Shown here: positions 11,664 to 28,022 of the stretch, one piece after another
Layout of the letters: each line of letters starts with the position of its first letter
How positions within the stretch are numbered: position 1 is the first letter of the stretch
Assembly: GCA_016178625.1 (NCBI GenBank)
Contig: JACOSX010000040.1
Coordinates: 1 to 42,146, forward strand
Source of the DNA: Ignavibacteria bacterium
GTDB taxonomy: Bacteria > Bacteroidota > Ignavibacteria > UBA10030 > SZUA-254
Length of the DNA stretch: 42,146 bases
Direction: 5' to 3'
The notes under the pieces: model-generated
The model's input: the letters and a program-made list of their open reading frames with translations, nothing else
The model's database searches: none
What the model was told of the DNA's origin: nothing
Position numbers and translations under genes: made by a program

Positions 11664-12645
11664 GCCGTTGTCCTCTGGCATCGAGATCTTGCTTCTTGAT
11701 GCGAATGAGAACATCCTCCATCAGCTTGCGATTCTTTGCCGTGATATCGGAGAGAAGACCAAACAACAATATTTGGAATCCGATGACAAGCAAGACGGCA
11801 GCGATGATGAGTGATTGGATATGACCGGTCTGGACATGTGGCAGACTGATATAGAAATAGAAGAAACGAAGTACCAGTACAACACCGGGAACCGAGAAGA
11901 TGAGCGCCAGCATCGTGAAGACGCGGAGAGGATTGTACATCGTGTAGATGAGGATAACCGTCAGTAGGGACCGACTGACATACTCACTCATCGACGAAAA
12001 AAGGCGCGACTCGCGGAGCTTCTCATTCGTTTGGACTTGCACATGTGCGATAGAAAGGCCGCCGATGCCCGCCTGGATGAGCGTTTCGAGTGTGTACGTA
12101 AAGTCGGAGAATACATTGAGGCGCATCGCCGCGTCGCGATCGTACGCACGAAAGCCGCTCGTGACGTCGGGGATCTTCGTGTTGGAGATCGTCCGCACGA
12201 AAGAACTGCCAACGCGCTGAAGCAGTTTCTTGAGTGGCGAGAAGTGTCCAATGTTCATAATATCCCGTGAGCCGATGACGATGTCCGCCTTCTTCTCAAG
12301 AATAGGCTGGACAAGTTTCCTGATATCCTCTCCCCGGTATTGGTTATCCGCGTCGGTGTTGACGATGATGTCGGCACCCAGCTCGAGACACTTTTCCAAA
12401 CCGGCGGCGAAGGCAGTTGCAAGTCCCTGATTGAACGTGAGACGGACAATGTGGTGGACGCCGCAGCTCTGCGCAACTTCAGCAGTGCGATCGGTGCTGC
12501 CGTCATCGATAACGAGAACTTCAATTGCATCGACGCCAGGAATTTGCTTCGGGAGATCGCGCAGCGTTGTCGGCAGCGTGGCTTCCTCGTTGTAGCACGG
12601 TATCTGGATGATCAGTTTCATGGTCTGCTCGTCCTTGTTTTTCAT
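11653..12645 (-). CDS. dolichol/undecaprenyl-phosphate sugar transferase-like GT2 (DPMS/GtrB-like)
   Basis: A 330-residue GT2 of the polyprenyl-phosphate mannose/glucose synthase type. It has LIIQIPCYNEEATLPTTL, VEVLVIDDGSTDRTAE-like sequence, NQGLATAFAAGLE, the metal site NTDADNQYRGEDI, and 'VIGSRDIM....SGFRAYDRDAA'. Two C-terminal membrane helices (about 235-265 and 275-305) are GtrB/YfdH-like. Such enzymes make lipid-phosphate sugars for use outside the membrane by GT-C transferases, and two GT-C-like genes lie directly upstream. The stop of the upstream gene overlaps the ATG (TAATG). A second in-frame ATG at 12621 has AAGGA upstream and may be the real start. Confidence 0.85.
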   Translation of the reverse strand: MKNKDEQTMKLIIQIPCYNEEATLPTTLRDLPKQIPGVDAIEVLVIDDGSTDRTAEVAQSCGVHHIVRLTFNQGLATAFAAGLEKCLELGADIIVNTDADNQYRGEDIRKLVQPILEKKADIVIGSRDIMNIGHFSPLKKLLQRVGSSFVRTISNTKIPDVTSGFRAYDRDAAMRLNVFSDFTYTLETLIQAGIGGLSIAHVQVQTNEKLRESRLFSSMSEYVSRSLLTVILIYTMYNPLRVFTMLALIFSVPGVVLVLRFFYFYISLPHVQTGHIQSLIIAAVLLVIGFQILLFGLLSDITAKNRKLMEDVLIRIKKQDLDARGQRHGT

Positions 12646-14507
12646 TACAATTTGGTTCTCGATGGTCGCTCAAACGAATATGGGTTGACAATATCGGGCT
12701 TGAGCCAGCCACGAACTGGTTGGAACATATCTACGGCAATGTAGGGTGCGAGCACCTTTTCAATATTCACGACAGTTACCAGCGCGAGAGACGCCCCTCC
12801 TGGGGGAATGATAGGCAACGACTCCGATTGCCTGTTTTCAAATCTCACGAGCTGAGCATCCTTATCATATAAATGGTAGCTCAGTGCGGATCCAATGCCA
12901 CCCACCTCTCCAGTGGTTTTATTACAGATGACAACAGGGATCTGAAAACTTTGAATGGCAGCGCGAGCACTTATTGGTACTCCGGGATCGAGAAGAAGAA
13001 CAACAGACACTTTCCCGCTATCCGATCGCCCAAGGCAGAATTTCTCTAGCGCGGGAAGATCGAGGATGAAATTCAGATAGAATGTCACATTGCTGGCATC
13101 TATGAACGTCCCCCAGCCCGAAGTGTCGACGGGTGAAGAAGAAAAGTACTGCAGGTGATCGAACGAGGCTGAACTTGGCGACGTCAACATTTTAACAGAT
13201 GCTCCCGAAATGAAATATCGTGGATAATAAATGGGTGATCGGGCATCCACTTCTGCGTGAAGCGCACGCTCTGAGAAAATTTCTCGTTCAGGATTATAGG
13301 CACCGGGGAATTTTGCCATAACTAATTTCGCAATTGGACTGAACTCGGTATATGCATACCTATGGGTCGAGGAATAGACAAACGAGGCGTTGTTCAACAT
13401 GAAGAAGCCACAGATGAGCGCGAGGCGGCGAAGATCCAGCAAAGATCGAGATACTACCCCACGGTAGATGAAAAAAAGGACAATCGGCACAATCATAAGC
13501 GAATAACGATTAATCATATTCATCCCGGAGTTCCAGTTCACTTGCGAAGTGGAAACCGTCAGATAGAAAATAGTGAATAGAAAGCCAAGCATTGCTATTG
13601 ATGTAACCCTTCGTGCAATAAGGACAACCCCAACAATCAATCCTGGATAGAAAACCAGCACTCCTGAGTTGAAATCGAAGAGAAGGCTCAAAATCTTACT
13701 AGATGTAATGTACTCTTTCTGAGCAGCCCCCGCAGAAACCAGGAGACTGAATGACTGGAACTTCCAAAAGTACCATAACGGTGAGGAAAAAGCAAGCAGT
13801 GTCACGGCCAGTATGAGAAGGTAGCGCTTGGCAGATGCCCTCTCGATCCGAAGCAAATGAATATTCCGCCACAACAAGATCAACACCCAGGGAATAAATA
13901 GAATAAACTGTGATGCCGCGATGGCCGCACAGAAAAATGAAGCCACGTGCCGACCTTGTTGAGATAGAAGCAACGAAAGCAGGAAGAGACAATATAACAT
14001 CACCTCGGGACCCGGCCACTTGAGATACCAAAGTATCGGCCCAACTATGAACGTTAGAAGAAACAAGATCCGGTGGCGCTCAGTATTTAGACCAACAACC
14101 ATAAGCAACAGGATAAATAATACATTCGTAACCTCAAGCGCCCGCATCTCATCAGATCCGATTGCGTGCAGGAGTGTCTTGACCGGGAGTGCTGCCAGCG
14201 GATATGTGAAAAAATGAAAAGAGTAATAGTTACTATCAGGCGTCTGACGGTAATTATAGTGCATGTTGGCGACCTTGAGCGGACCGAAACTGGATTTCGC
14301 TCTCACTGTTTCGAAATCTGTTACGTCTTTCTCCCTGAGATCGAGAGAGAAGTGATTAAATAGAGACTGAAGTTGATGAAAATAATCGAGACCATCTCCG
14401 GTCATCGAGGGCGGGCTGGACCCAAGGTACCAAAGCCCTGCGATCAAGACAAGCAGCAGTGCAACAATCTGTAATGTGTTATATGGTAGGCCCTTTGGCA
14501 ACCGCAT
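12645..14507 (-). CDS. large polytopic membrane protein, putative GT-C-fold glycosyltransferase
   Basis: A 620-residue protein with about 10-11 predicted membrane helices in residues 10-400, then a soluble domain of roughly 200 residues, probably periplasmic. The first loop after helix 1 has SMTGDGLDYFHQ, an acidic pattern at the position where GT-C enzymes keep catalytic Asp/Glu. 'MNMINRYSLMIVPIVLFF' is typical of late helices in GT39/GT87-like proteins. No close named family was recognised. Twelve bases separate it from the next large membrane protein gene, and its stop overlaps the polyprenyl-phosphate sugar synthase-like gene, so a lipid-phosphate-sugar-dependent transferase is a reasonable inference. 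Confidence 0.7.
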   Translation of the reverse strand: MRLPKGLPYNTLQIVALLLVLIAGLWYLGSSPPSMTGDGLDYFHQLQSLFNHFSLDLREKDVTDFETVRAKSSFGPLKVANMHYNYRQTPDSNYYSFHFFTYPLAALPVKTLLHAIGSDEMRALEVTNVLFILLLMVVGLNTERHRILFLLTFIVGPILWYLKWPGPEVMLYCLFLLSLLLSQQGRHVASFFCAAIAASQFILFIPWVLILLWRNIHLLRIERASAKRYLLILAVTLLAFSSPLWYFWKFQSFSLLVSAGAAQKEYITSSKILSLLFDFNSGVLVFYPGLIVGVVLIARRVTSIAMLGFLFTIFYLTVSTSQVNWNSGMNMINRYSLMIVPIVLFFIYRGVVSRSLLDLRRLALICGFFMLNNASFVYSSTHRYAYTEFSPIAKLVMAKFPGAYNPEREIFSERALHAEVDARSPIYYPRYFISGASVKMLTSPSSASFDHLQYFSSSPVDTSGWGTFIDASNVTFYLNFILDLPALEKFCLGRSDSGKVSVVLLLDPGVPISARAAIQSFQIPVVICNKTTGEVGGIGSALSYHLYDKDAQLVRFENRQSESLPIIPPGGASLALVTVVNIEKVLAPYIAVDMFQPVRGWLKPDIVNPYSFERPSRTKL

Positions 14508-14519
14508 TTCGTCTGGATC

Positions 14520-17441
14520 TTATGACGGACGAATACGAACCGGAATTTTCAATGACCCGCCGCCTTTTTGGTAAAACCAGACAACCCCCTCCTGGAGAAG
14601 GCTGATCATCACCACATACTCGTCAGGTGGCAACTGCCTGCCCTCAAACTTAGGGATCGTGATCGGGATGCTAACCTGAACCTCATCCGAAGGAAAGAGA
14701 CTGCAAGGCAGTTCTGCACGGCTTTCCGCGAGAGGTCGCACTGAATCCCCCTTTGTGAACCAGAGGATCCCGATTCGAACACTCCCCTCATAACCAGCGA
14801 CATCTGCCGGTGCGGGCCAGATTGCTTGACTTGTATTCATCACAAAAATCGCGAGTTGCGATGCTTTTGTTGGGGAGACAGTGACGCCAGCGGAGAAATC
14901 GATTGGCAAAATGACTGAGCGATACTCCGACAGGCGGTTTCTTGAATAGCTCGAGTCAGACTCTCGAAGACGAACTGACCTCACTGACACACCGAGCGTT
15001 CGATCATCGTTTGATCCCTTGTAGATGGTACTGGGAACAAATGTATCGCAGATAAGATCGAGAGTCAATGTGTCGCGCAACGGAACGTCGGCAAGAGAAT
15101 ACATTGCCTTCAATCCGCTCTGGGGAAGCCCTTGGTTGGTCAGGACGACGGAGTCTGCGAAGAGCGTGAATTTGCGACCGGGAGGCCCTATGCCGTCCAG
15201 TTCAAGCTGAAGCCATTTCGGTTTGTGAAGCGGAGCTATCGGTATCGAAAGCTTGGCTGAACCACTGGTCCATCGAGTCGCTATCCCACCCTGATGCTCA
15301 GTGCCCTCGAAGCCACTCTCTTGAACACCGAAGACGAGCTCGGAGCCCATCGTGACATTATTGTAGCTGTCAAACAGCGAGTCGATCTGATAGATCCAAA
15401 CGATTTTATCTTCGGCAACGACTTTCCGTGGGAGGGGCTGCAGCGTTGATTCATAATATGAACGGTGAAGGACGAGATTGTTGACGCCTGAGACGGCAAG
15501 ACCTCTCGGCAATGTGCTTTCGTGAAGCAAGCGTAATGGCTTGTACGATTCGTTTGCCTTTCGAACCAGTGAATGGACAGCAGCAATTTCTGTCGGGGAG
15601 TTGAGATCGAGTGGGACAATCTTTCGGTCAAAGACAGCAAAGAGCGGCGTCTCCCACGTGGCGAATGACGTTCCGTTATGGGATAAAACAATCTCATTAG
15701 GTGGCAGTAAGTTCGCCAGTGTCGCCAGGTCGTAATAATCCCCTTTCGATGCGCCCACGAAGAACAGCGGGGTGTCTGCAAGAACGGTGAACACAAGGAG
15801 GTATGCCGCGACTGCAGTGGGAATGAATGCTGCAACTTTCTGCCTGAATTGGATGTGCAAGAAATGCACGGCAAGCGCCGCGATGAGAATAAAGCCGGGA
15901 ATAATTACGGGCATGAACCTCCTGATCGCCCAAAAATGATCCGGTGCGATCGACGGATTCCACAAATAAGCCAGCGAAGAACCTGTCAGTAGCACAAATG
16001 CCGTCGCGAGTTTAGTATGTTCAACCGACTGGATGATTTTCCAGAATAGGAAACACCATCCGGCGACGGCAAGCCAAATGACGACAGGTGACACATACGG
16101 AGCAAGATTGACCAGCGAGTTCTCACGGTAATCGCGTGTTCCATCCAGTGGATGACCCGGCCAACTGATGACCGAGAACGGCTCTCCATGTGGCCGGATC
16201 CAATATGCATACACAGCGAGAGTAACCATGGTAACGCATCCAAGAACAATAATTGCTGTTGAGAACTTTCGAACTCGAAATCGATCCAGACGCGCCCAAG
16301 TAACTATGAGAAGCACCAGTACCCCGGCAAGTGACATGATACCGATTAAACGAACCTGCTTAGCGAGGGCGCTAAAGTATGGATTACTAAACAAAACAAA
16401 ATAGACGAGCGCCAAGAAGGCGACCGGTATCAATGATGAGTAAAGAGCTAACCATATCTTCGATGTTCGAGGATCATTCTCTCCCGCCGTGAAACGGAAG
16501 AGGACGTTGGCTGCGAACAGAAGAGGCACGACGAGGAATCCATCCACGCGCACGATTGCTGACACGCCAAGAATGAACCCAGCGACGCGTGCCAGCACAA
16601 CATCCTTCTCGTTCAGTGCAAGCAACCACACACTTAGTCCTGACCAGACAACGAGCTGCGCCATGATTTCGGTGAGTGTCACGCGCGCAAGCCACATCTG
16701 GCCGGGATTGAACGCGAACAGAAGTGCAGCGGTCAGAGCGAACGATCGGGGCATAACCCTCGCGCAGAAACCGTAGAAGACACAGACAGCAAGAACCGCA
16801 AGCACCCCATTGAGCCGGATCAAACCCTCAAGACCGAACGATCCGTATGCCTCCGCAAGCCAGACTGGAAAGAGATGTGCGAACTGCATAGTCATGGTAG
16901 GCTGGGTCTTATAGAAGCCCGGAAATCCTTCGAACACAGGATTGAGTAGAGCGCTGTCCGCTGGGGAATACGGATACGGTACATCCATCGTACCATGGTT
17001 GGCAATGAATATTCCTTCAGAGGCGTACACCCCGGTATCTCTTTCGCCATTGATACTTCCCTGTGGAAAAGCAAGATATGATATCGCCGCAAGAATTATT
17101 CCTCCAGTACAAATCCAGTCTATGATGGGGATAGGTGTATGAGCAGCGCGAGCCTGCATGGTAGGTCTTCGCCGATACCGCCATAGAGAATACAAGACAA
17201 GGAACCAACCCACAACACCGACGGGAACGCTGGTGAAGATACCTGCCATGGCCATCGCCAGGATGGGTAACGACCACACAACAATACCGATCGTCGACAA
17301 AAGGGCAACAAAGGTGATCCTAGGGTACTCTTCGAGTCGAGCAAGTGATGGCATACGAACGTATATAAGGTAACCGGTCAACGGCAATGCCGGCCAGATT
17401 CCAGCAGAGAGTAGCATAGCAAAGAAATTCATCTTCGTCAT
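14520..17441 (-). CDS. very large polytopic membrane protein, putative GT-C-fold glycosyltransferase with C-terminal beta-rich domain
   Basis: About 973 residues: some 14 membrane helices within residues 1-560, then about 410 residues of soluble, beta-rich sequence (from GASKGDYYDL onward) with no membrane segments. The first large loop carries NGERDTGVYASEGIFIANHG, comparable to the acidic loop of GT39/PMT-type enzymes, and 'LFAFNPGQMWLARVTLTEIMAQ' is similar to PMT_2 proteins. The start is set at the ATG at 17441 behind an AGGG; a TTG one codon earlier is possible. It is three to seven bases downstream of a GT4 gene. Function as a periplasmic glycan-modifying transferase is inferred. Confidence 0.72.
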   Translation of the reverse strand: MTKMNFFAMLLSAGIWPALPLTGYLIYVRMPSLARLEEYPRITFVALLSTIGIVVWSLPILAMAMAGIFTSVPVGVVGWFLVLYSLWRYRRRPTMQARAAHTPIPIIDWICTGGIILAAISYLAFPQGSINGERDTGVYASEGIFIANHGTMDVPYPYSPADSALLNPVFEGFPGFYKTQPTMTMQFAHLFPVWLAEAYGSFGLEGLIRLNGVLAVLAVCVFYGFCARVMPRSFALTAALLFAFNPGQMWLARVTLTEIMAQLVVWSGLSVWLLALNEKDVVLARVAGFILGVSAIVRVDGFLVVPLLFAANVLFRFTAGENDPRTSKIWLALYSSLIPVAFLALVYFVLFSNPYFSALAKQVRLIGIMSLAGVLVLLIVTWARLDRFRVRKFSTAIIVLGCVTMVTLAVYAYWIRPHGEPFSVISWPGHPLDGTRDYRENSLVNLAPYVSPVVIWLAVAGWCFLFWKIIQSVEHTKLATAFVLLTGSSLAYLWNPSIAPDHFWAIRRFMPVIIPGFILIAALAVHFLHIQFRQKVAAFIPTAVAAYLLVFTVLADTPLFFVGASKGDYYDLATLANLLPPNEIVLSHNGTSFATWETPLFAVFDRKIVPLDLNSPTEIAAVHSLVRKANESYKPLRLLHESTLPRGLAVSGVNNLVLHRSYYESTLQPLPRKVVAEDKIVWIYQIDSLFDSYNNVTMGSELVFGVQESGFEGTEHQGGIATRWTSGSAKLSIPIAPLHKPKWLQLELDGIGPPGRKFTLFADSVVLTNQGLPQSGLKAMYSLADVPLRDTLTLDLICDTFVPSTIYKGSNDDRTLGVSVRSVRLRESDSSYSRNRLSEYRSVILPIDFSAGVTVSPTKASQLAIFVMNTSQAIWPAPADVAGYEGSVRIGILWFTKGDSVRPLAESRAELPCSLFPSDEVQVSIPITIPKFEGRQLPPDEYVVMISLLQEGVVWFYQKGGGSLKIPVRIRPS

Positions 17442-17447
17442 CAATCC

Positions 17448-18761
17448 CTATCCTGCAAGTTCTTTGACTGCCGCTGCTATCCTGCGAATATCCTGATAGC
17501 CGAGCCGTGCATCGGTCCATTCGCTTAATTCCTTGCCGACCTTTTCTATCAATGGGGGTGCAATGGCAGCGGGATCTGTCTGGACCATCTGCGAGAATTC
17601 GAGCAGAGAATCGACGTACGTTTCCATGTTATGTTGTTCACGCAGGAGATCTCTTCCCCGCTCACCCATCGCCCGGAACGATGCAGGATTCTTGAGGAAG
17701 GCGGCGAGATGGTGCAGAACGTCTTCCACTTCGTGGTCGACCCGAACGAAACATGCGATCTCTTCCGGGATGTCGGCATACCATCCTATTGGAGTAACAA
17801 GCGAAGGGAGCGCGTATGACCAGATTTGAAGCTGACTGAGAGACGCCTCACCCATCGTTGGATAACGAAGGTTGAAGGCAATGTGTGCGTTTGACAAGAA
17901 GCGATTCAGTTCTGCTTCGGACACGTAGCCATGCAAACTGACGCAAGTGTTCAAGTCTAGCCGTTCAAGTTTATGGCGGATGGCTTTTTCATCATGCAGT
18001 TCTCCCACGATATCAAGATGGAAGGATTCACGCTCGGGAAAACCGGCAAGCGCGTCCAGAACGGCATCCAGCCGACGGTTGTAGCCGATGAAGCCGAAAA
18101 GGATCAGATTAAATCTCTGCGGAGAGGAGACTCTCCATTTTTGATCTTCGGTTGCAACACGAGAAGGCATCATCGGATATGGAAGTGGCGCGTAGATGCA
18201 GGGAATCTTGCCCGTTTTGTTCAGAGCATCGAACGCCGTCCTAGTGTGGACGACGGTACCAAGCGACCGACCAATGACAAACTCCGTGAGCGGATACTGA
18301 TACGACATGTATTCAAAATCCACTCCATGTGGAACCGTTGTGAAGGTGGCAGCATCGCGCAGTCCCTTTTCTCCATAATAGTAGTACATTTGTCGATAGT
18401 ACTCGTCGAGGTCATTCCACTGGAGGCGAAACATGTGCTCGACAAAGATGTGAAGACTTACATCGTGAAGCACCATTGTTGCAGGAACTTGGCGACTCAC
18501 TTCAAATATCGCACCATGGTATGGTTGGTTATTGCCGATATGGAGAATGGTCACGTCAGCGCGGTTCACTTCTCGCCAATCGATGCGTTCGGGTTTGAAA
18601 GACTTTACCTCCGCGTACTTCTCGATTTCAATATTCCAGGATTCCTGGTTCGTCCAAAGAACAACGTGACATTGCTTGGCGAGCACAGGCAAAACCAGGG
18701 CAGTGTAATCGGCGATTCCCGTCCGGGCGGGTGGCAACGGTGAGAACCAGTTCACTTTCAT
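17448..18761 (-). CDS. family 4 (GT-B) glycosyltransferase
   Basis: A 437-residue GT-B protein beginning KVNWFSPLPPARTGIADYTA, a motif shared by GT4 enzymes of O-antigen clusters. ILFGFIGYNRRLDAVLDAL opens the donor domain, and 'RYPTMGEASLSQLQIWSYALPSLVT' holds the E-x7-type donor site in a divergent form (GEASLSQLQIW). About 50 extra residues at the C-terminus are helical. The ATG overlaps the upstream GT4 stop by four bases. Together with the next two genes upstream it forms a run of three GT4 enzymes. Sugar specificity is unknown. Confidence 0.85.
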   Translation of the reverse strand: MKVNWFSPLPPARTGIADYTALVLPVLAKQCHVVLWTNQESWNIEIEKYAEVKSFKPERIDWREVNRADVTILHIGNNQPYHGAIFEVSRQVPATMVLHDVSLHIFVEHMFRLQWNDLDEYYRQMYYYYGEKGLRDAATFTTVPHGVDFEYMSYQYPLTEFVIGRSLGTVVHTRTAFDALNKTGKIPCIYAPLPYPMMPSRVATEDQKWRVSSPQRFNLILFGFIGYNRRLDAVLDALAGFPERESFHLDIVGELHDEKAIRHKLERLDLNTCVSLHGYVSEAELNRFLSNAHIAFNLRYPTMGEASLSQLQIWSYALPSLVTPIGWYADIPEEIACFVRVDHEVEDVLHHLAAFLKNPASFRAMGERGRDLLREQHNMETYVDSLLEFSQMVQTDPAAIAPPLIEKVGKELSEWTDARLGYQDIRRIAAAVKELAG

Positions 18762-19804
18762 GCGAGCAGCCTATCAACGACATTGGCCCAACGAATGTTC
18801 ATACTTTCATAGCGCTCCTTCCCGTTCTCTCCCATTCTTTTTGCGAGAGAGCGATCTTTCCATAAGCGATCGAAAGCCTCGGCGATCCCCTCAGGAGTAG
18901 GTTCTGTCACGAATCCGGTTTGCCCATCGACGACAAACTCCAGCGGTCCTCCTGAATCGCGGCAGGTAACGACCGCGCGCGATGCGAGCATCGCTTCGAG
19001 CGTAACGTACCCGTAGTCTTCGTCGGTGGGGGGATAGACTACCGCAAGCGCGTTTGCATATGTTCTCACTTTCTCATCCTCACTGACTCTCCCCTGCCAT
19101 TCGACTCGGTCGCCAAGGTTGAGGGTCTTGAGTGTCTCTTGCAGAAAAGAGACATATGCCTGATGATCTGCTATTCCGGCAAACTTCACGCGCACAGGCT
19201 GCTTCGTTTTCGCGAGAGCCTGCAAGACAAGGTCTTGCCTTTTGATCGTTGTGAGCCGGCTGGGGAAATAGAAATAGTCACCGTAATCCGCGGCGTAGAA
19301 TTTTTCCGCGGAACCGGGAGGGCTATAGAGAGGGGATGAATCAATGCCGCAGAACAACTTCAGACGATTGCTGACGTTTTGCGCGATTGTGTAAATCGCC
19401 TTGCACTCCGGAATATGCTTCTGGTCCGCGAGATGGATTGCATCGCGAACAACTTTGCCGTTAGGAAAATGTATCATGTCACCAAACTTATGGTCCCACA
19501 GTTCATATGCCGTGCGATGCTGATGCACCAGCCACAACACTTTGTTTGGATGCGGAATAAGGTATGAGGGAAACTTCAACCCGATCAACCGGTCGATGGG
19601 CGTACCGTTGCTCTCGGTTAAGTCCATCAGCCTGCAGGCGAGCATATATTCGATGATGCGCCCCGGCGGGTACCACTTAAAGGGAATAGCAACAATCTCC
19701 GCGTCGTGCCCTTCTGCACGTATTGCATGACATAAGCCTTCCGCAAGAATCTCAGCTCCGCCACGAATGAATGGGACCTGTGCGGTCGCAATAACAACTC
19801 TCAT
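18758..19804 (-). CDS. family 4 (GT-B) glycosyltransferase
   Basis: About 348 residues starting MRVVIATAQVPFIRGGAEIL, with the Gly-Gly-Ala-Glu loop typical of GT4 acceptor domains. The donor side has YFYFPSRLTTIKRQDLVLQAL and YPPTDEDYGYVTLEAMLASRAVV, with Glu residues at the nucleotide-sugar site. The start at 19804 overlaps the upstream stop (ATGA) and follows GGAGG at about ten bases. A longer frame would add 17 residues inside the upstream gene. It probably acts in sequence with its GT4 neighbours. Confidence 0.87.
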   Translation of the reverse strand: MRVVIATAQVPFIRGGAEILAEGLCHAIRAEGHDAEIVAIPFKWYPPGRIIEYMLACRLMDLTESNGTPIDRLIGLKFPSYLIPHPNKVLWLVHQHRTAYELWDHKFGDMIHFPNGKVVRDAIHLADQKHIPECKAIYTIAQNVSNRLKLFCGIDSSPLYSPPGSAEKFYAADYGDYFYFPSRLTTIKRQDLVLQALAKTKQPVRVKFAGIADHQAYVSFLQETLKTLNLGDRVEWQGRVSEDEKVRTYANALAVVYPPTDEDYGYVTLEAMLASRAVVTCRDSGGPLEFVVDGQTGFVTEPTPEGIAEAFDRLWKDRSLAKRMGENGKERYESMNIRWANVVDRLLA

Positions 19805-21021
19805 GCTATGACCCCCTCCAATACTTTCTCTACTCTTGCTCCAATCATCTGCCACGAATGATATTCGTGAATTTTCCGTCGCCCCTGCTCAGCCATCCGC
19901 CGGAGCTTCGAGGGATCGGCAAGAGCATGACGTATGCACGACGATAGCGCGGCGACATCGCCATAGGGAACTGTAAGTCCCGCATCGCCGATGACTTCCG
20001 GTGCGGCTCCCTCGGTCGTCCCGATGACCGGGACACCACACGCCCATGCTTCGAGAAATACGATACCAAAGGACTCGAATTTCGAAGGCAGAACAAGGAT
20101 GTCGGTTGCATGGAGAAGGTCGACTTTCTCCTCGTGTGTAAGAACACCTGCATCGATGACAAATGATTTCACCTCCGAAGCGAGGCTCATGTAGAGGACG
20201 CTAAACCACTCGAACCCTGGACCTGCAAGGATGAGCTTCACCGGAATATGCTCGTGCAACACTTTGATCGCATCGATGAGAACGCTGACACCTTTCTTCT
20301 CCATTTTTCTGCCCAGGAATGTAATCACTTTGTCGCCAACCCGAACGCCCCATATCTGTTCCATCGTAGCTCTCAACTTCTGAATGTCGCCGGGCCGATA
20401 ATCATCGGGATTGACGCCGACACCAACGACGGCAATCTTCTCCTGCCCTACCCCGCGCGTTGCGAGATGATTCCGCTCAAACGCGGTATCGGCAAGAACG
20501 GCGTCACACTTGTTCATCAGCCAGTAATTGCTTCGGCGCTCGTAGTCGGGATGCCCCGGATGAAAGTGCGGGATGATGACAACCGGCTTACGGAGAACTC
20601 TGCCTGCCCAGAATCCGATGTAATTATGTGGGAACGGAAGCGTATGAAGCATAATCACGTCCGCGGCGATCAACTCATTCCACATCTTCAGATACATTTC
20701 CACAGAGTGGGGACCGTAGAACAGTACCCCGAACTTCCAATCAAGAATTCTCTTGAACAGCAAATGATGCAGAACAAAGACCGGAAGGGTACGCTTATAC
20801 CGACGAACGTATACTCCTTCGTCAACATCAACACTTGCGAAGGGTGGCTTGTCATCATGAGTTGAACGCTTCTTCCAGAATTCTTCTTCGTGATCGACAT
20901 TCATGGTAAGGACACGAACTTCGTGACCCTGCTGCACAAGGGCGCGGGACACCTCCCGGCACCATGTTTCAGATCCGCCGACTGCAGGTGGATAACGCTG
21001 GATAAATTGGACAATTTTCAC
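19801..21021 (-). CDS. family 4 (GT-B) glycosyltransferase
   Basis: A 406-residue enzyme. The N-terminus KIVQFIQRYPPAVGGSETWC has the Gly-Gly-Ser-Glu substrate loop; IIPHFHPGHPDYE is near the middle; the donor domain has ITFLGRKMEKKGVSVLIDAI, and SKFESFGIVFLEAWACGVPVIGT carries the E-x7-E motif. It lies 19 bases after the coiled-coil methyltransferase gene and overlaps the next GT4 by four bases. It is likely a chain-building transferase of the exported glycan; donor unknown. Confidence 0.9.
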   Translation of the reverse strand: MKIVQFIQRYPPAVGGSETWCREVSRALVQQGHEVRVLTMNVDHEEEFWKKRSTHDDKPPFASVDVDEGVYVRRYKRTLPVFVLHHLLFKRILDWKFGVLFYGPHSVEMYLKMWNELIAADVIMLHTLPFPHNYIGFWAGRVLRKPVVIIPHFHPGHPDYERRSNYWLMNKCDAVLADTAFERNHLATRGVGQEKIAVVGVGVNPDDYRPGDIQKLRATMEQIWGVRVGDKVITFLGRKMEKKGVSVLIDAIKVLHEHIPVKLILAGPGFEWFSVLYMSLASEVKSFVIDAGVLTHEEKVDLLHATDILVLPSKFESFGIVFLEAWACGVPVIGTTEGAAPEVIGDAGLTVPYGDVAALSSCIRHALADPSKLRRMAEQGRRKIHEYHSWQMIGARVEKVLEGVIA

Positions 21022-21040: not shown

Positions 21041-23056
21041 CTACGTCTTCCACGCGATGATTGCGTAATCCTGGGGCCCGTAGAAAAACGCATTGAACCG
21101 CGTAGACGTCTCCGTTTGTTCATGGATCATCGCGGCATCTTCAAAAGGGTGCAGGCTGCGAACTTCGACATCACCAAAACCGCGAGCTCCTGCAATGAAT
21201 TTAACCAGGTGGCTGGGCAATGGATTATGGTGCGTTGGATCCAAGTAAAATCGATTACTTCCCACCTGCACATTTTCCGGATTTGGGGTCTCGAAGATGA
21301 CAACGCCTCCAGGTTTCAACACGCGCAACACTTCATCGAATAAGCGAACCCACACAGTGAACGGGAGATGCTCGATGACGTGAAAGCCGGTCACTGCAGC
21401 AAGACTCTTATCCTTCATCTTGTCCAGGTACTCGAGAGCATCGTCGTGAAATACCTTGAGGCCCAGAGCCTGACATTGTGCGACCATAGTCGCATTGGTG
21501 TCAACTCCATACGAGACGTAGCTCGATTCACGAAGTAATTCCAGCCATTCCCCCCGACCGCAACCGATGTCAACAATGGGGGCACCCGCGGTTGCCTCGG
21601 ATGCTTTTTGGATGACGGGGAGATAGATGCGGGAACGATTCTTAATATCGGCACGCGTCCCGCGGAATTGATCTTCAAAGGCAACATACAGATCATCAAG
21701 CATACCCTCAAGCTCTTTTGAAATCTTCTGCAGTTGGTCTTTGTCGAATTTTTTGGGCAATCTCTTGTGCGTCTCTTCCAACAACCGGAAGAGTCGGCGC
21801 TCTTGAGATTGCAGATTCACACTCAATTTCAAAACCATATCCTCGACCTGGCTGATGTGGGGATCAAGCCTGGCTAGAGAGGCTGTCCGCGTATTCAGTT
21901 CGCGTACGCTTTCACTCAAGTCTCGGATATCATGCTCATGGTGTGGAAGGACGTTGATCTGGGTTGTAACATCATCTACTCGCGCACTCAGTCGTGAGAG
22001 AGACCCGACCTGAGCCTGAAGTTGGGTGACGTCGGCCGTGAGCGGAAGCAATTGTTCAACGACGATCCGGATATCTTCAACACGGGCGGGGAGACTTGGA
22101 AGAGGCTGCAGTAACAGTTCCGTTTGTTTCAATCTTTCCTCCACGCTTGTCGAGATTTTCTGGAGAGCATCGATCTCATGAACCCGGGATGCGAGAGTTT
22201 CCAACTGTCCGATCCGTAGATGGATCTCCTTCACCTGGTCCTGCAACGCTGAGAGTGATTCAATTCGGGTAGCCGCGTCAGCAATCCGCACTTCGAGTTT
22301 CTCCAATTCACCGATACGCGCCTGGGTTTCCTTCAAACCGGCTTCAGCGTCTGTTACGGCAGCGCGAGTCTTTGTTAGAACAGCTTTGGTTTCCATCACC
22401 GCGGAGATAGTCTCCTTCATATCCCCGATGAGCCTCGGCATTTCCTTCGTCCGACTGTCGAGAGTTTCTAGTGCCATCTGCAGGGTAGCGACTGCTCCAA
22501 GACGTTTTTGTATGTCCGTGATTTCGCCCTTGATGTCTTTTTTTACTTCTGCCAAGTTCCGCATTTGGAGATACAATTCTGAAATATCGCTCTCATTCTT
22601 AGCGATTGATTGTGTGCGGGTATCCAATCCTGAAACACGCTGCTCGATGTCGGCAATCCGAATTTCAATCTGACCAACTTTGTCAAGTCGGCGCGAGAGG
22701 AGTAAGGCATTTTGATTAATGATCTCCAATCCCTCGCGCAAGGCATGCATGGAGCGGACGGATGCGACATTGAACCTTTCCTGTGGCTTGGTAACAACCT
22801 GGCTAAAATAGAGTACTACCTTCCCGACGACCTTTGCGATCCCCCTGATGAAGAGCGGATAGTGATCCATGTTTGGCTTCGTAGTCCAAACATTGCTGGA
22901 TCTCTCTGATTGGCCCAGAGAACCATCGATCCGGTTCCAATCGAGATCTTTCATTCGTACCTCGGGATCAACTGCAGAATCATCATGATGTTTCGACAAC
23001 TTCGCTCGAATACGATTCATAATATCATCGACGGTGACCTTTGGCAGTTCTTTCAT
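21041..23056 (-). CDS. long coiled-coil protein with C-terminal SAM methyltransferase, putative glycan chain terminator/ruler
   Basis: Of 671 residues, 1-45 are a charged segment (KVTVDDIMNRIRAKLSK), about 70-95 an amphipathic or membrane-proximal helix (FIRGIAKVVGKVVLYFSQVV), about 100-450 a long heptad-rich coiled coil, and about 495-650 a methyltransferase. Motif I is VDIGCGRGEWLELL at 495-508, GFHVIEHLP is motif post-II, and FETPNPENVQVG followed by FYLDPTHHNPLP strongly resembles WbdD-type O-antigen chain-terminating methyltransferases. WbdD caps the non-reducing end, and its coiled coil sets chain length; no WbdD-like kinase was seen here. Eleven bases separate it from wzt. GAGG precedes the ATG. 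The terminator/ruler role is inferred from domains and context. Confidence 0.8.
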   Translation of the reverse strand: MKELPKVTVDDIMNRIRAKLSKHHDDSAVDPEVRMKDLDWNRIDGSLGQSERSSNVWTTKPNMDHYPLFIRGIAKVVGKVVLYFSQVVTKPQERFNVASVRSMHALREGLEIINQNALLLSRRLDKVGQIEIRIADIEQRVSGLDTRTQSIAKNESDISELYLQMRNLAEVKKDIKGEITDIQKRLGAVATLQMALETLDSRTKEMPRLIGDMKETISAVMETKAVLTKTRAAVTDAEAGLKETQARIGELEKLEVRIADAATRIESLSALQDQVKEIHLRIGQLETLASRVHEIDALQKISTSVEERLKQTELLLQPLPSLPARVEDIRIVVEQLLPLTADVTQLQAQVGSLSRLSARVDDVTTQINVLPHHEHDIRDLSESVRELNTRTASLARLDPHISQVEDMVLKLSVNLQSQERRLFRLLEETHKRLPKKFDKDQLQKISKELEGMLDDLYVAFEDQFRGTRADIKNRSRIYLPVIQKASEATAGAPIVDIGCGRGEWLELLRESSYVSYGVDTNATMVAQCQALGLKVFHDDALEYLDKMKDKSLAAVTGFHVIEHLPFTVWVRLFDEVLRVLKPGGVVIFETPNPENVQVGSNRFYLDPTHHNPLPSHLVKFIAGARGFGDVEVRSLHPFEDAAMIHEQTETSTRFNAFFYGPQDYAIIAWKT

Positions 23057-23067
23057 CTGGCCACGCC

Positions 23068-23799
23068 TCAGTGAACGGAAACTAATTGAGTATACTCGCC
23101 AATCATGACATCGGTTCCTCCGTGTCCAACTAATCGCCCATTGTCAATAACGATCACACTATCGCAATACTCTCGGACTGCCTCCAGATCATGACTGACA
23201 AACAGGATAGTAATTCCATTTCTCTTTAAATTCCAAAATACGCTTCGGCACTTATCCCCGAACGCCTTATCTCCCACCGCTAATACTTCATCAACAAGCA
23301 TGATCGGCGCGACGGACTGGATGGCGATCGCAAAGCCCAATCGCATTTGCATCCCTGTGGAGAGCTTCTCAAGTCTTGCATCGACGAACCGTTCGAGTTC
23401 CGAGAAGGCAAGGATTTCGTCGATCTTCTTGTTCATCTCCCTTCGCGTGAAACCGAGAAGAGCGCCATAAAGAACAATATTATCGCGGACGGAGAAGTCG
23501 CGCTGGAATCCTACACCCAGCTCGAGCAGTGGGAAAATTTCATCTTTGATGATCACCTCGCCCGATGTGGGCTGGTAGATGCGCGACAACATCTTCAGCA
23601 GCGTCGATTTCCCGGAGCCGTTCCGTCCGATGATGCCGACAAATTCACCGGGCTCGATCTTGAAGGTGACATCCTTGAGTGCGAAGAATTCCTCGTAGTC
23701 GTACGTCCGCGTAATGACGGAGAGGAGATTGTGATACAGCGTCTTCTTCTTCGCATGGGGAATGCGGAATACTTTTGAGAGATGACGAACTTCAATCAT
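23068..23799 (-). CDS. wzt: ABC transporter ATPase for polysaccharide export (Wzt-like), without carbohydrate-binding domain
   Basis: This 243-residue protein powers export of lipid-linked glycan through Wzm. Walker A is GRNGSGKS at residues 58-65, the signature LSTGMQMRLGFAIA is near 146, Walker B is IMLVDEVLAVGD near 167, and the switch His is in FVSHD near 204. The N-terminal FRIPHAKKKTLYHNLLS segment is typical of Wzt/TagH/KpsT-type ATPases. It ends right after the ATPase core, so it lacks the 150-200-residue C-terminal domain that reads chain ends in E. coli O8/O9a Wzt. Its ATG overlaps the Wzm stop by one base (TGATG). Confidence 0.93.
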   Translation of the reverse strand: MIEVRHLSKVFRIPHAKKKTLYHNLLSVITRTYDYEEFFALKDVTFKIEPGEFVGIIGRNGSGKSTLLKMLSRIYQPTSGEVIIKDEIFPLLELGVGFQRDFSVRDNIVLYGALLGFTRREMNKKIDEILAFSELERFVDARLEKLSTGMQMRLGFAIAIQSVAPIMLVDEVLAVGDKAFGDKCRSVFWNLKRNGITILFVSHDLEAVREYCDSVIVIDNGRLVGHGGTDVMIGEYTQLVSVH

Positions 23800-24626
23800 C
23801 AGAATAACTCCGAGAGTCTGTCTTGAAATCGCCGGAAGATGAAATACCCGGCGCCAAAGGAAAACGATGAATACAGAACCGTCATCACTAAGAACCGTAG
23901 ATCGAAGTAATTGTACAGGAGGTAGTGACGAATGAGCACAAAAATGCGCGTCAGCGGATTGAAATAGACCAGTGTCGAGATCGGCTCGGGAAGCGTCTCA
24001 ACGTTAAACACAATCGGGCTCAGCCAGAAGATCACCAGGACCATCACACCCCAGATCTGACCCATGTCGCGGAAGTATGCATACAGTGTTGCGAGCAAGA
24101 ATGAAATGCCTGTCGAGAAAAGTATGAGGCACAAGACCGGAACCGGTGTGAGCAGCACCAGCGGCGTGAATCCTTTCACAACGAAGACAAGCATGAACAG
24201 GACGAGAAGATTAATGAGATACGAAAGGACACACGTGCTCGACGAGGCAAAGATGATAAGCGTCCGGGGAAAATAAATCTTCTTCATGATGCCGGACTTC
24301 GCGGCAAGCGAATTCATCGCACTGAATGTGCAATCCTGGAAAAAGGCGTAACTGATGATGCCGGCAAGAAGGAACAGAGGATACTCGGGGATGTCGCTTT
24401 TAAAAATATGAGTGAAGACGAAGTAATAGACAGCAAACATCAACATCGGATTAAGCATTGACCAGATGTAGCCGAGAGCGGAGTCGTGGTACTTCAATCG
24501 GAAATCGGCAATCGCTAATTCCCGAATGATGTTCATGTGCTTGGCAAACTCCCTCGGCTTCGGGGGAGCTGTCATGTGCAGAACCCCCGCCGGTCTCACC
24601 GCTGATTCAACTTCCGCTGTCTTCAT
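23799..24626 (-). CDS. wzm: ABC-2 type polysaccharide export permease (Wzm-like)
   Basis: A 275-residue inner-membrane permease with six predicted helices. The N-terminal amphipathic segment (HMNIIRELAIADFRLKYHDSALGYIWSMLNPMLMFAVYYFVF) with its 'YHDSALGYIWSMLNP' is a hallmark of the Wzm/TagG/KpsM family. LLAGIISYAFFQDC and 'VFWLSPIVFNVETLP' follow, and 'IFRRFQDRLSELF' at the end is the usual cytoplasmic tail. It forms the channel with the Wzt dimer. It starts three bases after the upstream methyltransferase/coiled-coil gene and overlaps wzt by one base. Confidence 0.94.
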   Translation of the reverse strand: MKTAEVESAVRPAGVLHMTAPPKPREFAKHMNIIRELAIADFRLKYHDSALGYIWSMLNPMLMFAVYYFVFTHIFKSDIPEYPLFLLAGIISYAFFQDCTFSAMNSLAAKSGIMKKIYFPRTLIIFASSSTCVLSYLINLLVLFMLVFVVKGFTPLVLLTPVPVLCLILFSTGISFLLATLYAYFRDMGQIWGVMVLVIFWLSPIVFNVETLPEPISTLVYFNPLTRIFVLIRHYLLYNYFDLRFLVMTVLYSSFSFGAGYFIFRRFQDRLSELF

Positions 24627-24629
24627 ATC

Positions 24630-26816
24630 TCAGATTTTTTCTTTCGGCACCAACCCTAACGACGTAAGTGTTCGGTACATTGGCGAGGAGAGGATGCGGC
24701 TGAGTTTCTGCTCGACCATCGTCCCCCATGCTTGAAGTTCCTGTACTTTGATCTGGCTTTTGCTGTACCGCAATTGGAGATCGGACTGAGACTTCTGATA
24801 CGTATCAAATGCAATCACTTGTTTCTCCAATTCTGCTTTTGCCTGACGCGCTGCGAGTGCCTGCTCTTCATAGTTGCGCTGGAGGTTACCGAGGAATGCC
24901 GTTTGTTCGTTCACACGAGTTTCGAGCCGTATGATTTTCTCTGCGCGGTCCACCGATTCACCCTGAACCACTTCGAGGCGGGCACATTGTGCTTCGAGAT
25001 CTTTCGTCAATGTCGATACAAGATCCGTTTTCTCCAAGGCCGTTTTCCGGAATTCTCCGACTGTTACTTGTAACTTCTCAAATTCCTGATGAACTCTCGC
25101 CAACTCAGTTGAACGCTCACTCATCAGGTGCTGGAGATGTGTTATCTGCTCACTCAATCTGGATCGTTCTTCCTGCGTTCTGCTCAGCTCCTCTGCATGG
25201 GTATTGTAAAAGCGCTGCAATTCCTGGTTTTTGTTACGAAGCTCCGCGATCTCGCCCCCCGCGGAAGAAGCAAGACGTTTTTCTTCCTCAATCGTTTCCT
25301 CCAAGTGCCGTATCATCGCCGCGCGATTGGTGAGCTCTTCATCCACCGTCGACACAGCGCAGGATTTTTCATCGATAATATTCCGGAGGCTTTCTACCTG
25401 CGCAGTGAGAGCAGCAATTTCTCCTTCGCGTACCTTGAGAAGGTGATCGTCATCTACAACTTGTTTCCTCACTTCTTCAAGACGCTGTCGTAGTTCACCT
25501 TTCTCTTCATCGCCTTGTGTGATGAGCGCCGACCGTTCTGCAAGCTGGTCCTCCAACTTTTGTATGGTAACTCTCAGACGCTCGTACTCTGCGGCTGCTT
25601 CATTCAGATGAATTTCGCGTTCCTCAATCTTTGCCTTGAGTTCCGACACTTTCTCCGCAAGAGCATTTTGTTCTTCTTTGAGTCCGTTTGCCCGTGCGGT
25701 TCGTAGATCGTACGCCTGTTGCAGTGTCTCAATCGATGCATGGGCATTGGCAAGGTCGTTCTCGAGCACTGCCACGAGTGAGTTGCGCTGCTCAACCGTT
25801 GCCTCTGTCTCCTCAAGTCTCTGCCGATATGTTGCAATCTCTCCCCGGAGCTGATGGACAAGACCTAAACGCTCTATATTGTCCGCGCGGAGCGATGCGA
25901 GATCAGTATGGGTATCGCGAAGCTGACTCTCAAGTTGTTGCTTGTTAGACAACATTTCGCGCGTTTTCGAAATCTGACGAGTATCATAATAGCAGGAATT
26001 GCTGCCATCGGCGATCTCTCGCGAGAGGAGGTTATCTGAACAGATAGCGATAAGGCATGAAGGCTCAGTAAATTGTTCATCCTCCGGCGTTAGAGTAAAA
26101 AGATCATCGCGGGTGTAGAACCGAAAATAATCATCCTTCCATTGATACAACGACCAGATTGTCGATGTCGTAAGGAGTTTTTGACCAATAAAGATTGAAC
26201 TTTGGAAATACTTCTTGAGGAATTCCGCAAACTCGACGGCGGTCATTTCTTGTCGTCGAGAAGGACCATGTGCAACTTCGGCTTCGACGGGCGGGTGTTC
26301 AAGCGTGAATGAAATGACGGCAATCCCCTCCGGGGTAAGTGTGTGTTTCAGATTCTTAAGAAGCCCATGCCGCTGTTCTGTGTTGAGATGATTGAATAGC
26401 CCATCCACGATAATGGCGTCCATGTTCTGTTCCCCGAATCCAGAATCCATCACGGGGCGTGCTTCATAACGCGCTCGTGGAAAGCTTGCGTACTTTTCCC
26501 TCGCCTCGCTGATTAATGTTTCGTCTGGATCGATCCCTATGGCTTCAGCCGCATTCAGCGAAAGAAAGGCAGTTCCATACCCTTCTCCACATGCTATATC
26601 CAACACTCGTTTGTTTTTTACAAACCTCGACGCATAAAGGTATCGATGGTAGTGTTCCAGTGATAGCAAAGGATCAGAATTCTGAGGATGGAATCGCGGG
26701 ACAATGGCGAGATCAAGATCATCTGTAACGATTGCTTCCCCTTCAGTTGTGGTTTTGATATTTGTTGATAAGGATCCCTCATCCGTGGTCAGAATGGTAG
26801 CGTGATTTGACATCAT
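24630..26816 (-). CDS. N-terminal SAM methyltransferase with very long C-terminal coiled coil, putative chain terminator/ruler
   Basis: Of 728 residues, about 50-240 are a methyltransferase: VLDIACGEGYGTAFL at 71-85, acidic AIGIDPDE, and a degenerate motif II region (DAIIVDGLFNHLN). Residues about 285-690 are an almost unbroken coiled coil rich in Glu, Gln, Leu and Arg. The C-terminus is SRILSSPMYRTLTSLGLVPK, possibly a docking tail. The order, methyltransferase first and coiled coil second, is that of E. coli WbdD without a recognisable kinase. AAGGAG precedes the paired ATG codons. It directly precedes wzm, and the opposite-order protein directly follows wzt. Ruler function is inference; a scaffold role is the alternative. 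Confidence 0.78.
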   Translation of the reverse strand: MMSNHATILTTDEGSLSTNIKTTTEGEAIVTDDLDLAIVPRFHPQNSDPLLSLEHYHRYLYASRFVKNKRVLDIACGEGYGTAFLSLNAAEAIGIDPDETLISEAREKYASFPRARYEARPVMDSGFGEQNMDAIIVDGLFNHLNTEQRHGLLKNLKHTLTPEGIAVISFTLEHPPVEAEVAHGPSRRQEMTAVEFAEFLKKYFQSSIFIGQKLLTTSTIWSLYQWKDDYFRFYTRDDLFTLTPEDEQFTEPSCLIAICSDNLLSREIADGSNSCYYDTRQISKTREMLSNKQQLESQLRDTHTDLASLRADNIERLGLVHQLRGEIATYRQRLEETEATVEQRNSLVAVLENDLANAHASIETLQQAYDLRTARANGLKEEQNALAEKVSELKAKIEEREIHLNEAAAEYERLRVTIQKLEDQLAERSALITQGDEEKGELRQRLEEVRKQVVDDDHLLKVREGEIAALTAQVESLRNIIDEKSCAVSTVDEELTNRAAMIRHLEETIEEEKRLASSAGGEIAELRNKNQELQRFYNTHAEELSRTQEERSRLSEQITHLQHLMSERSTELARVHQEFEKLQVTVGEFRKTALEKTDLVSTLTKDLEAQCARLEVVQGESVDRAEKIIRLETRVNEQTAFLGNLQRNYEEQALAARQAKAELEKQVIAFDTYQKSQSDLQLRYSKSQIKVQELQAWGTMVEQKLSRILSSPMYRTLTSLGLVPKEKI

Positions 26817-26819
26817 CCA

Positions 26820-28022
26820 TTACTCCTTCATTAGTGTAGTATACAAGTTTTCCACCTTCCGTGCATGGCAACGCCAGCTCAACTCATCGAATGAGCCCTC
26901 CTCACGAATCCATGCACGCGTACCTGAAAATTCCTTAGGATTACGATCTTTTTCTTCGAGAGATTTTAACACACATTCTCCTAACGACGAAGCATTATTG
27001 GGCTTCGCAACAGTGACCCCGGGGAAGTGACGCACCACCTCGAGCGCGCTTACAGTTTCGGTAAGGACAACAGGCACACCGCTTGCAAGTGCTTCAAGTA
27101 CAATGAGACCAAATCCTTCTGAGAGAGATTGACACACCACGAGATCCAGGCCCCTCATCACCGCAGGGAGATCATCACGTTGAGGGATGAAAAGAACACC
27201 GTCGCCCAACTTCATCTCTTGTTGGAGTTTCAAGATTTCATCGTAGTATTTCCTGAACGATGGCGCAGTGTCGGCATTGAGAACACTACCGATGATAACG
27301 AATTTCACATCATTCCTTTCTTTCAGTACGAACGAAGCCGCTTGCAAAAAAAGGTGATGCCCTTTCGTCGGCTCGTAGCGTGCAATCATGCCGATGAGCT
27401 TGATGTTTTCTCCAATGCCCAATTCCCTGCGCAATACACTCGTTGCGCTCTCTTGTTGAGGATAATACACGGAGGTGTCTACCCCTGGATGGATCACCTC
27501 AATCCTGCGTTTCAACCAGAGTGTTCGATTGATCAGATCTTTCTTCACAGCAAGAGAGTGTGCGACGATCATTCGTACTGTGAACAACGCAAGAATGTTG
27601 AACGCAATGATACGTGTCCACTCGTAGAAAAAGACCACATTGTAGACCAACGGTATTCTGAAGCGCAACACCGGAACCGCGACGAAGGCAAGCGATAGCA
27701 CATCGCTGCAATGGATGATGTCGATCGGATTCTGCTTTAAGAATCTTTGAATCTCCTGTGAAGCTTTCACGGCGTTAAAGAACATCGCGGGTCGAACTAA
27801 TTCTTTCAACATCATTCGTTGGTATGGCACAATTACGGTCCTGACGCCCAACGCCTCAACTTTTTCTACAAATGCACCACGCTGGTTAAACATCATCACC
27901 GGTTCATATCTTGACCGATTGAGTTCCTTTAAGAGATAATATATCACATATTCACCGCCACCCATCTCTGTATACAGGTTTATGAAGAGGATGGTGATTT
28001 TCTTATCGGGACGTGAGGTCAT
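26820..28022 (-). CDS. family 4 (GT-B) glycosyltransferase
   Basis: A 400-residue GT-B enzyme. TILFINLYTEMGGGEYVIYYLL provides the glycine-rich acceptor loop (split around residues 9-30), DIIHCSDVLSLAF is the Rossmann core, and KLIGMIARYEPTKGHHLFLQA opens the donor domain. The E-x7-E motif is SEGFGLIVLEALASGVPVVL. The ATG overlaps the stop of the preceding GT2 by four bases, and three bases separate its stop from the next gene. It probably builds the exported glycan. Donor sugar unknown. Confidence 0.9.
   Translation of the reverse strand: MTSRPDKKITILFINLYTEMGGGEYVIYYLLKELNRSRYEPVMMFNQRGAFVEKVEALGVRTVIVPYQRMMLKELVRPAMFFNAVKASQEIQRFLKQNPIDIIHCSDVLSLAFVAVPVLRFRIPLVYNVVFFYEWTRIIAFNILALFTVRMIVAHSLAVKKDLINRTLWLKRRIEVIHPGVDTSVYYPQQESATSVLRRELGIGENIKLIGMIARYEPTKGHHLFLQAASFVLKERNDVKFVIIGSVLNADTAPSFRKYYDEILKLQQEMKLGDGVLFIPQRDDLPAVMRGLDLVVCQSLSEGFGLIVLEALASGVPVVLTETVSALEVVRHFPGVTVAKPNNASSLGECVLKSLEEKDRNPKEFSGTRAWIREEGSFDELSWRCHARKVENLYTTLMKE

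Follow-up and report, generated by a model that had tools for sequence, protein, structure and literature searches.

A 42,146-nt stretch of DNA from an Ignavibacteria bacterium (hereafter the window) contains four intact open reading frames in series on the minus strand, i.e. a methyltransferase with a coiled coil (A), the permease Wzm, the ATPase Wzt, and a second coiled-coil methyltransferase (B). The window is contig 25, coordinates 1-42146, of a 3.36 Mb metagenome-assembled genome (MAG) that is 97% complete. The A-Wzm-Wzt-B block is best explained as the part of a surface-glycan cluster that serves export and end modification. In the reading that we favor, with a probability of about 50%, B acts as the glycan methyltransferase and A as a coiled-coil scaffold on an exporter without a carbohydrate-binding module (CBM). 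The supporting features are all read from sequence: gene order, domain anatomy, the intact motifs of B, the decay of A, the missing CBM, and the co-occurrence of A and B.

An earlier, sequence-only reading had placed the four genes in this order, and all of them were confirmed as intact. The opposite domain orders that it described also hold. Both proteins have one class I methyltransferase domain, which is N-terminal in A, followed by a coil of ~430 residues, and C-terminal in B, preceded by a coil of ~335 residues (Table 1). The gene order on the minus strand is GT2, GT4, A, Wzm, Wzt, B, GT4, GT4, GT4 (GT, glycosyltransferase). The spacing within A-Wzm-Wzt-B ranges from a 1-base overlap to 11 bases, and the wider block is likewise tight or overlapping. 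Because the gaps are only a few bases or overlaps, the block from GT2 to the last GT4 is very likely one transcription unit.

Among 100 relatives, A or B was found only in the window genome (G000) and in G010, which belongs to the same family and another genus. There, the four genes stand in the order of the window, and the gene neighborhood matches. The pair is thus kept together in the sole relative that has either gene (1 of 100), as the earlier proposal of a functional pair would have it. The N-terminal region of B occurs only in these two genomes among 391 genomes of the class.

Table 1. Features of the block, all on the minus strand (aa, amino acids; G010, the related genome; L numbers, other loci)
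Feature	Position	Strand	Properties
GT4 glycosyltransferase	26820-28022	-	400 aa; upstream of A; same placement in G010
A	24630-26816	-	728 aa; N-terminal class I methyltransferase (probably dead), heptad coiled coil, conserved C-terminal segment
A, catalytic half	26247-26405	-	residues 138-190; family-invariant E142, P171, H187 and others lost
A, coiled coil	24690-25982	-	residues ~279-709; autocorrelation at 28, 56, 84, 112 residues
A, C-terminal segment	24633-24836	-	residues 661-728; 62% identical to G010 versus 26% for the coil
Wzm, ABC-2 permease	23799-24626	-	275 aa; PF01061, 1.6e-14
Wzt, ATPase without Wzt_C domain	23068-23799	-	243 aa; PF00005, 4.5e-24
B	21041-23056	-	671 aa; conserved N-terminal motif, coiled coil, C-terminal methyltransferase
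B, N-terminal motif	22985-23056	-	VTVDDIMNRIRAKL; family consensus PEIDVDxLMxxIRxE
B, coiled coil	21722-22729	-	residues ~110-445; hydrophobic periodicity, model
B, methyltransferase domain	21044-21718	-	residues 447-671; Pfam 3.9e-17; 66/67 family-conserved columns kept in window and G010
GT4 glycosyltransferase	19801-21021	-	406 aa; next gene after B; homologue adjoins B in G010, L078, L099, L102
GT4 glycosyltransferase (GT365)	18758-19855	-	365 aa; member of a B-GT-GT cassette seen across phyla
GT4 glycosyltransferase (GT437)	17448-18761	-	437 aa; third cassette gene

The two methyltransferases and their coiled coils

Judged by its motifs and conserved columns, B belongs, in intact form, to the 3dli-type coiled-coil methyltransferases, a family found across phyla. 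The profile of its methyltransferase domain matched the PDB entry 3dli from Archaeoglobus fulgidus at 8e-48, whereas all other entries had values of 2e-8 or worse. In the predicted model the domain has confidence values (predicted local distance difference test, pLDDT) mostly >90, and the head aligns with 3dli with a Z score of 28.0 and a root-mean-square deviation of 1.7 Å over 208 residues, compared with a Z score of 20.9 for the next-best match. B has the GCGRGEW, FHxIEHL, FETPNPEN and DPTHxxPLP motifs of the family as well as its N-terminal PEIDVDxLMxxIR motif and helical region, and it keeps 66 of the 67 methyltransferase columns that are conserved at ≥90% in 23 relatives. The 3dli chain is numbered 253-473; from the start at 253, the crystal seems to represent the C-terminal domain of a longer protein built like B. 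An active methyltransferase dependent on S-adenosylmethionine (SAM) is the best explanation for these features of B.

The 'ETPNPEN...DPTHHNPLP' segment of B had been taken as WbdD-like. WbdD of E. coli O8/O9a and Klebsiella O5/O3 consists of a methyltransferase with or without a kinase, a coiled coil, and a C-terminal docking region. The segment turned out to be the signature of B's own 3dli-type family, and WbdD was not among the best 60 of 205 PDB matches to the methyltransferase profile of B. It was also not seen in the list of structural neighbors of the B model, an absence that leaves a likeness possible. Among open-licence papers, we found no description of B's family or of the A-B pair.

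The methyltransferase domain of A (residues ~41-264) is closest to the N-terminal domains of large methyltransferase-coil-glycosyltransferase proteins, and also to free-standing enzymes. We aligned it with 25 relatives, which yielded 30 aligned columns with at least 80% conservation. Apart from one conservative change, both A proteins retain the conserved columns of the SAM half (residues 55-109). Both have lost E142 and H187 of the catalytic half, which are invariant in the 25 relatives, and also N184. The losses comprise E142, P171 and H187 in the window and E142, H143, H187 and E190 in G010. The relatives of the methyltransferase-coil-glycosyltransferase type keep the IEH and NxFHxxE motifs, whereas A has lost both, and A has no glycosyltransferase or kinase module.

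To quantify the decay, we compared the identities of the two halves. Between the window and G010 proteins, identity is 66% for residues 51-115 but 20% for residues 116-192, a ratio of 0.30. For 27 pairs of relatives with 50-85% identity in the SAM half, the ratios were 0.78-1.35, and the lowest value among all 300 pairs of relatives was 0.51. The C-terminal part of the domain is 55% identical between the two A proteins, the last 68 residues 62%, and the coil 26%. This conservation pattern is, as far as the alignments tell, that of a protein kept for its ends and rod, not for catalysis, and the C-terminal segment is a candidate docking site for the membrane or a partner. With its SAM half kept and decay of the catalytic half in the window and G010 alike, A is probably a pseudo-methyltransferase. 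At the level of sequence, this bears out the suggestion that one of the two enzymes might be degenerate, and A is the one that looks so.

Both coils show a strong hydrophobic periodicity, i.e. 3.50 residues for A (power 6.2) and 3.42 residues for B (power 5.8), compared with a power of 1.6 at the 95th percentile of shuffled sequences in each case. The coil of A is a regular heptad array with a 28-residue repeat; that of B has a slightly shorter period and eight prolines. The lengths of the A and B coils are 64 and 50 nm in the window and 70 and 36 nm in G010. A single heteromeric rod of A and B, which had been raised as a possibility, is unlikely because the coil lengths neither match nor co-vary between the two genomes; the periodicities in the window differ as well.

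An exporter without a carbohydrate-binding domain

The 243-aa Wzt of the window lacks the C-terminal carbohydrate-binding domain PF14524 (Wzt_C), and no match to Wzt_C was found anywhere in the assembly. The Wzt of G010 also has 243 aa. The best NCBIfam models for Wzm and Wzt are galactan exporters, with matches below the model cut-offs. In WbdD systems, the coil separates the capping enzyme from the polymerase, and the CBM of Wzt admits only capped chains (PMC3482155, PMC11231755, PMC10629545). The long coiled coil beside a catalytic domain is present in both A and B, but the partner Wzt with a cap-reading C-terminal CBM is missing; a Wzt without C-terminal domain is instead a feature of the CBM-less ABC glycan exporters. 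Without a Wzt that reads the cap, the WbdD scheme cannot hold here in its unaltered form, contrary to the parallel that had been drawn.

The likeness to WbdD is one of architecture only, judging from the profiles. Like the kinase-less WbdD of O8, A consists of an N-terminal methyltransferase, a coil, and a conserved C-terminus and is encoded beside wzm-wzt, but its catalytic motifs are lost, it has no kinase, and its Wzt has no cap-reading CBM. As with B, WbdD was not among the best 60 PDB matches to the profile of A. Klebsiella O7 ORF6, a methyltransferase-coil-glycosyltransferase protein, is likewise comparable to A in architecture. The CBM-less O-antigen exporters of Klebsiella O2a/O1 share the short Wzt with the window, but PMC11231755 and PMC10629545 describe no paired coiled-coil methyltransferase proteins for them.

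Distribution of the B family and of paired methyltransferases

A scan with one genome per species yielded at least 500 relatives of B, of which the best 80 loci were kept. They stem from cyanobacteria, sulfate reducers, Proteobacteria, Nitrospirae, Acidobacteria, Omnitrophota, a spirochaete, and an archaeal MAG. Within Bacteroidota at large, B-type methyltransferases were found, besides the window, in 6 of 395 sampled genomes, all of one genus and with shorter frames. The B-family gene directly follows wzt in 24 of 85 cases, and in another 21 it lies 250-4000 bases downstream of wzt. Genera with wzm-wzt-B include Fischerella, Anabaenopsis and Desulfofundulus. Of the Wzt in these 45 cases, 44 have 384-566 aa, in contrast to the 243 aa of the window and G010, and Wzt_C was confirmed by Pfam in all four long Wzt tested (L077, L097, L102, L139). 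The single short Wzt, at locus L075, has no Wzt_C. One locus (L073, 850-5153) has two tandem wzm-wzt pairs, one with a short and one with a long Wzt, upstream of a single B. By eye, residues ~55-150 of the B homologues of L066, L067 and L092 form a DUF4214-like N-terminal region, and L066 and L067 additionally have distinct annotated DUF4214 proteins close to B.

Together with B, GT365 and GT437 make up a cassette of three genes that recurs in about fifteen loci from cyanobacteria, alphaproteobacteria and an acidobacterium. Besides the window (17448-21021 plus B at 21041-23056), loci with the cassette are L068, L070, L075, L093, L098, L115, L120, L122, L125, L132 and L135. At L075 (Amazonocrinis), the order is Wzm, short Wzt, B, GT365, GT437, i.e. 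that of the window minus A. Because the cassette recurs, mostly without Wzm/Wzt nearby, the chemistry of B is probably tied more to the product of GT365 and GT437 than to the exporter.

Pairing of B with a second methyltransferase recurs elsewhere, and the exact A-B form is the Ignavibacteria variant of this theme. In about a dozen cyanobacterial loci, a methyltransferase protein of ~612 aa is encoded between Wzt and B (e.g. L072, 7302-9140). In Phormidesmis (L146, 8096-10684), this protein is fused to a coil and a B head, with 64% identity over residues 1-495 and 61% for the head; its 612 aa-like part contains two methyltransferase domains by Pfam. In a member of the Methylococcaceae (L092), a 287-aa protein with an N-terminal methyltransferase and a short C-terminal helix precedes a B with C-terminal methyltransferase, so that an opposite-order pair is found again, but with a long Wzt. 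Such pairs look rare, as strong B-family matches occur in 7 of 274 sampled genomes of that class and two matches in only two.

Farther along the window, two large membrane proteins have no Pfam match above the cut-off, i.e. a 974-aa protein with ~13 hydrophobic segments (14520-17444), with a weak match to the LA_3751 putative glycosyltransferase family, and a 620-aa protein with ~9 hydrophobic segments (12645-14507). Near the contig end, a 656-aa protein (1036-3006) has a type A sorting domain of the type IX secretion system (T9SS).

Proposed mechanism and alternatives

In the scaffold reading, the catalytic head of B would sit at the end of its rod, which the N-terminal helix would anchor near the membrane. 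B would add its methyl group to the glycan during growth, most likely on or close to the non-reducing end, and would work together with the glycosyltransferases encoded after it. A, with its SAM fold and C-terminal segment kept, would be a long scaffold that organizes the synthesis complex at Wzm/Wzt. With a Wzt that lacks the CBM, export would be either coupled to synthesis, as in Klebsiella O2a, or gated in trans by A and B. In Klebsiella O1/O2a, CBM-less exporters work with synthesis coupled to export, and a terminal group can be mere decoration (PMC11231755, PMC10629545). A carbohydrate-binding domain provided in trans is functional as well (PMC6379404). Deletions in Synechocystis, where loss of a methyltransferase encoded in a wzm/wzt cluster has effects like those of transporter loss (PMC3769361), show that such coupling can occur, at least for the enzyme studied there.

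Several points weigh against this reading. The window and G010 belong to one family and in effect represent a single lineage, so that the co-occurrence of A and B counts as one event. The B-GT365-GT437 cassettes are usually without Wzm/Wzt in the stretch examined, and some lie beside type I secretion and DUF4214 genes; therefore, B need not be an export-linked terminator. The A of the window keeps H143 and E190, and the local sequence resembles 8gdu and 6mro. H143 aligns with the DAILH stretch of phosphoethanolamine methyltransferase, an H132A mutant of which is among the deposited structures. An altered specificity of A instead of lost catalysis is thus possible. The AlphaFold model of A, made from a two-row alignment, has pLDDT values <50 at residues 1-279 and gives no usable methyltransferase fold; the active site was judged by sequence alone.

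The two-part ruler and terminator suggested by the earlier reading, in which B would cap by methylation and both coils would jointly set the timing of the cap, is rather unlikely. Such a device would suit the presence of two coiled-coil methyltransferase proteins at one transporter and the recurrence of a second methyltransferase beside B, once even fused to it, and O-antigen systems with capped chains generally use a coiled-coil terminator (PMC11231755, PMC3482155). However, all terminated O-polysaccharide examples are stated to have a CBM on Wzt (PMC11231755), which is missing here, and the lack of co-variation of the coil lengths and the different periodicities do not point to a joint ruler. 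An ordinary decoration is unlikely: B would methylate a sugar without control of length or export, comparable to the terminal pyruvate of Klebsiella O1, and A would be active on a changed acceptor. The B cassettes without Wzm/Wzt and the retention in A of the SAM motif, plus H143 in the window, are compatible with this, but the catalytic half of A has diverged both from the family and between the window and G010, and long coils would be superfluous for plain decoration.

Very unlikely, in our estimation, is a replacement of the missing Wzt domain by A, which would bind the end methylated by B and hand the chain to the CBM-less Wzm/Wzt, in analogy to a carbohydrate-binding domain that works when given in trans as a separate protein (PMC6379404). 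Equally improbable is a module for protein-linked glycans instead of a lipid-linked polymer: the cassettes of L068 and L070 have type I secretion proteins and proteins with DUF4214 as neighbors, L132 has a subtilase with DUF4214 nearby, and the window encodes the T9SS-tailed protein, but the genes sit inside a Wzm/Wzt operon with many glycosyltransferases.

In many phyla, wzm-wzt is commonly accompanied by the B family, which is apparently uncharacterized in the literature that we found. A second methyltransferase recurs with it, as does a conserved pair of glycosyltransferases, so that results obtained here would transfer to many glycan clusters. If A replaced the binding domain of Wzt, B would be the writer and A the reader of the chain end, and the two coiled-coil methyltransferases would together gate export in trans. 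Should A be a dead methyltransferase scaffold, as we favor, the structural and catalytic roles of coiled-coil terminators would be separated, and the CBM-less Wzt makes the block a test case of whether capping and export must be linked.

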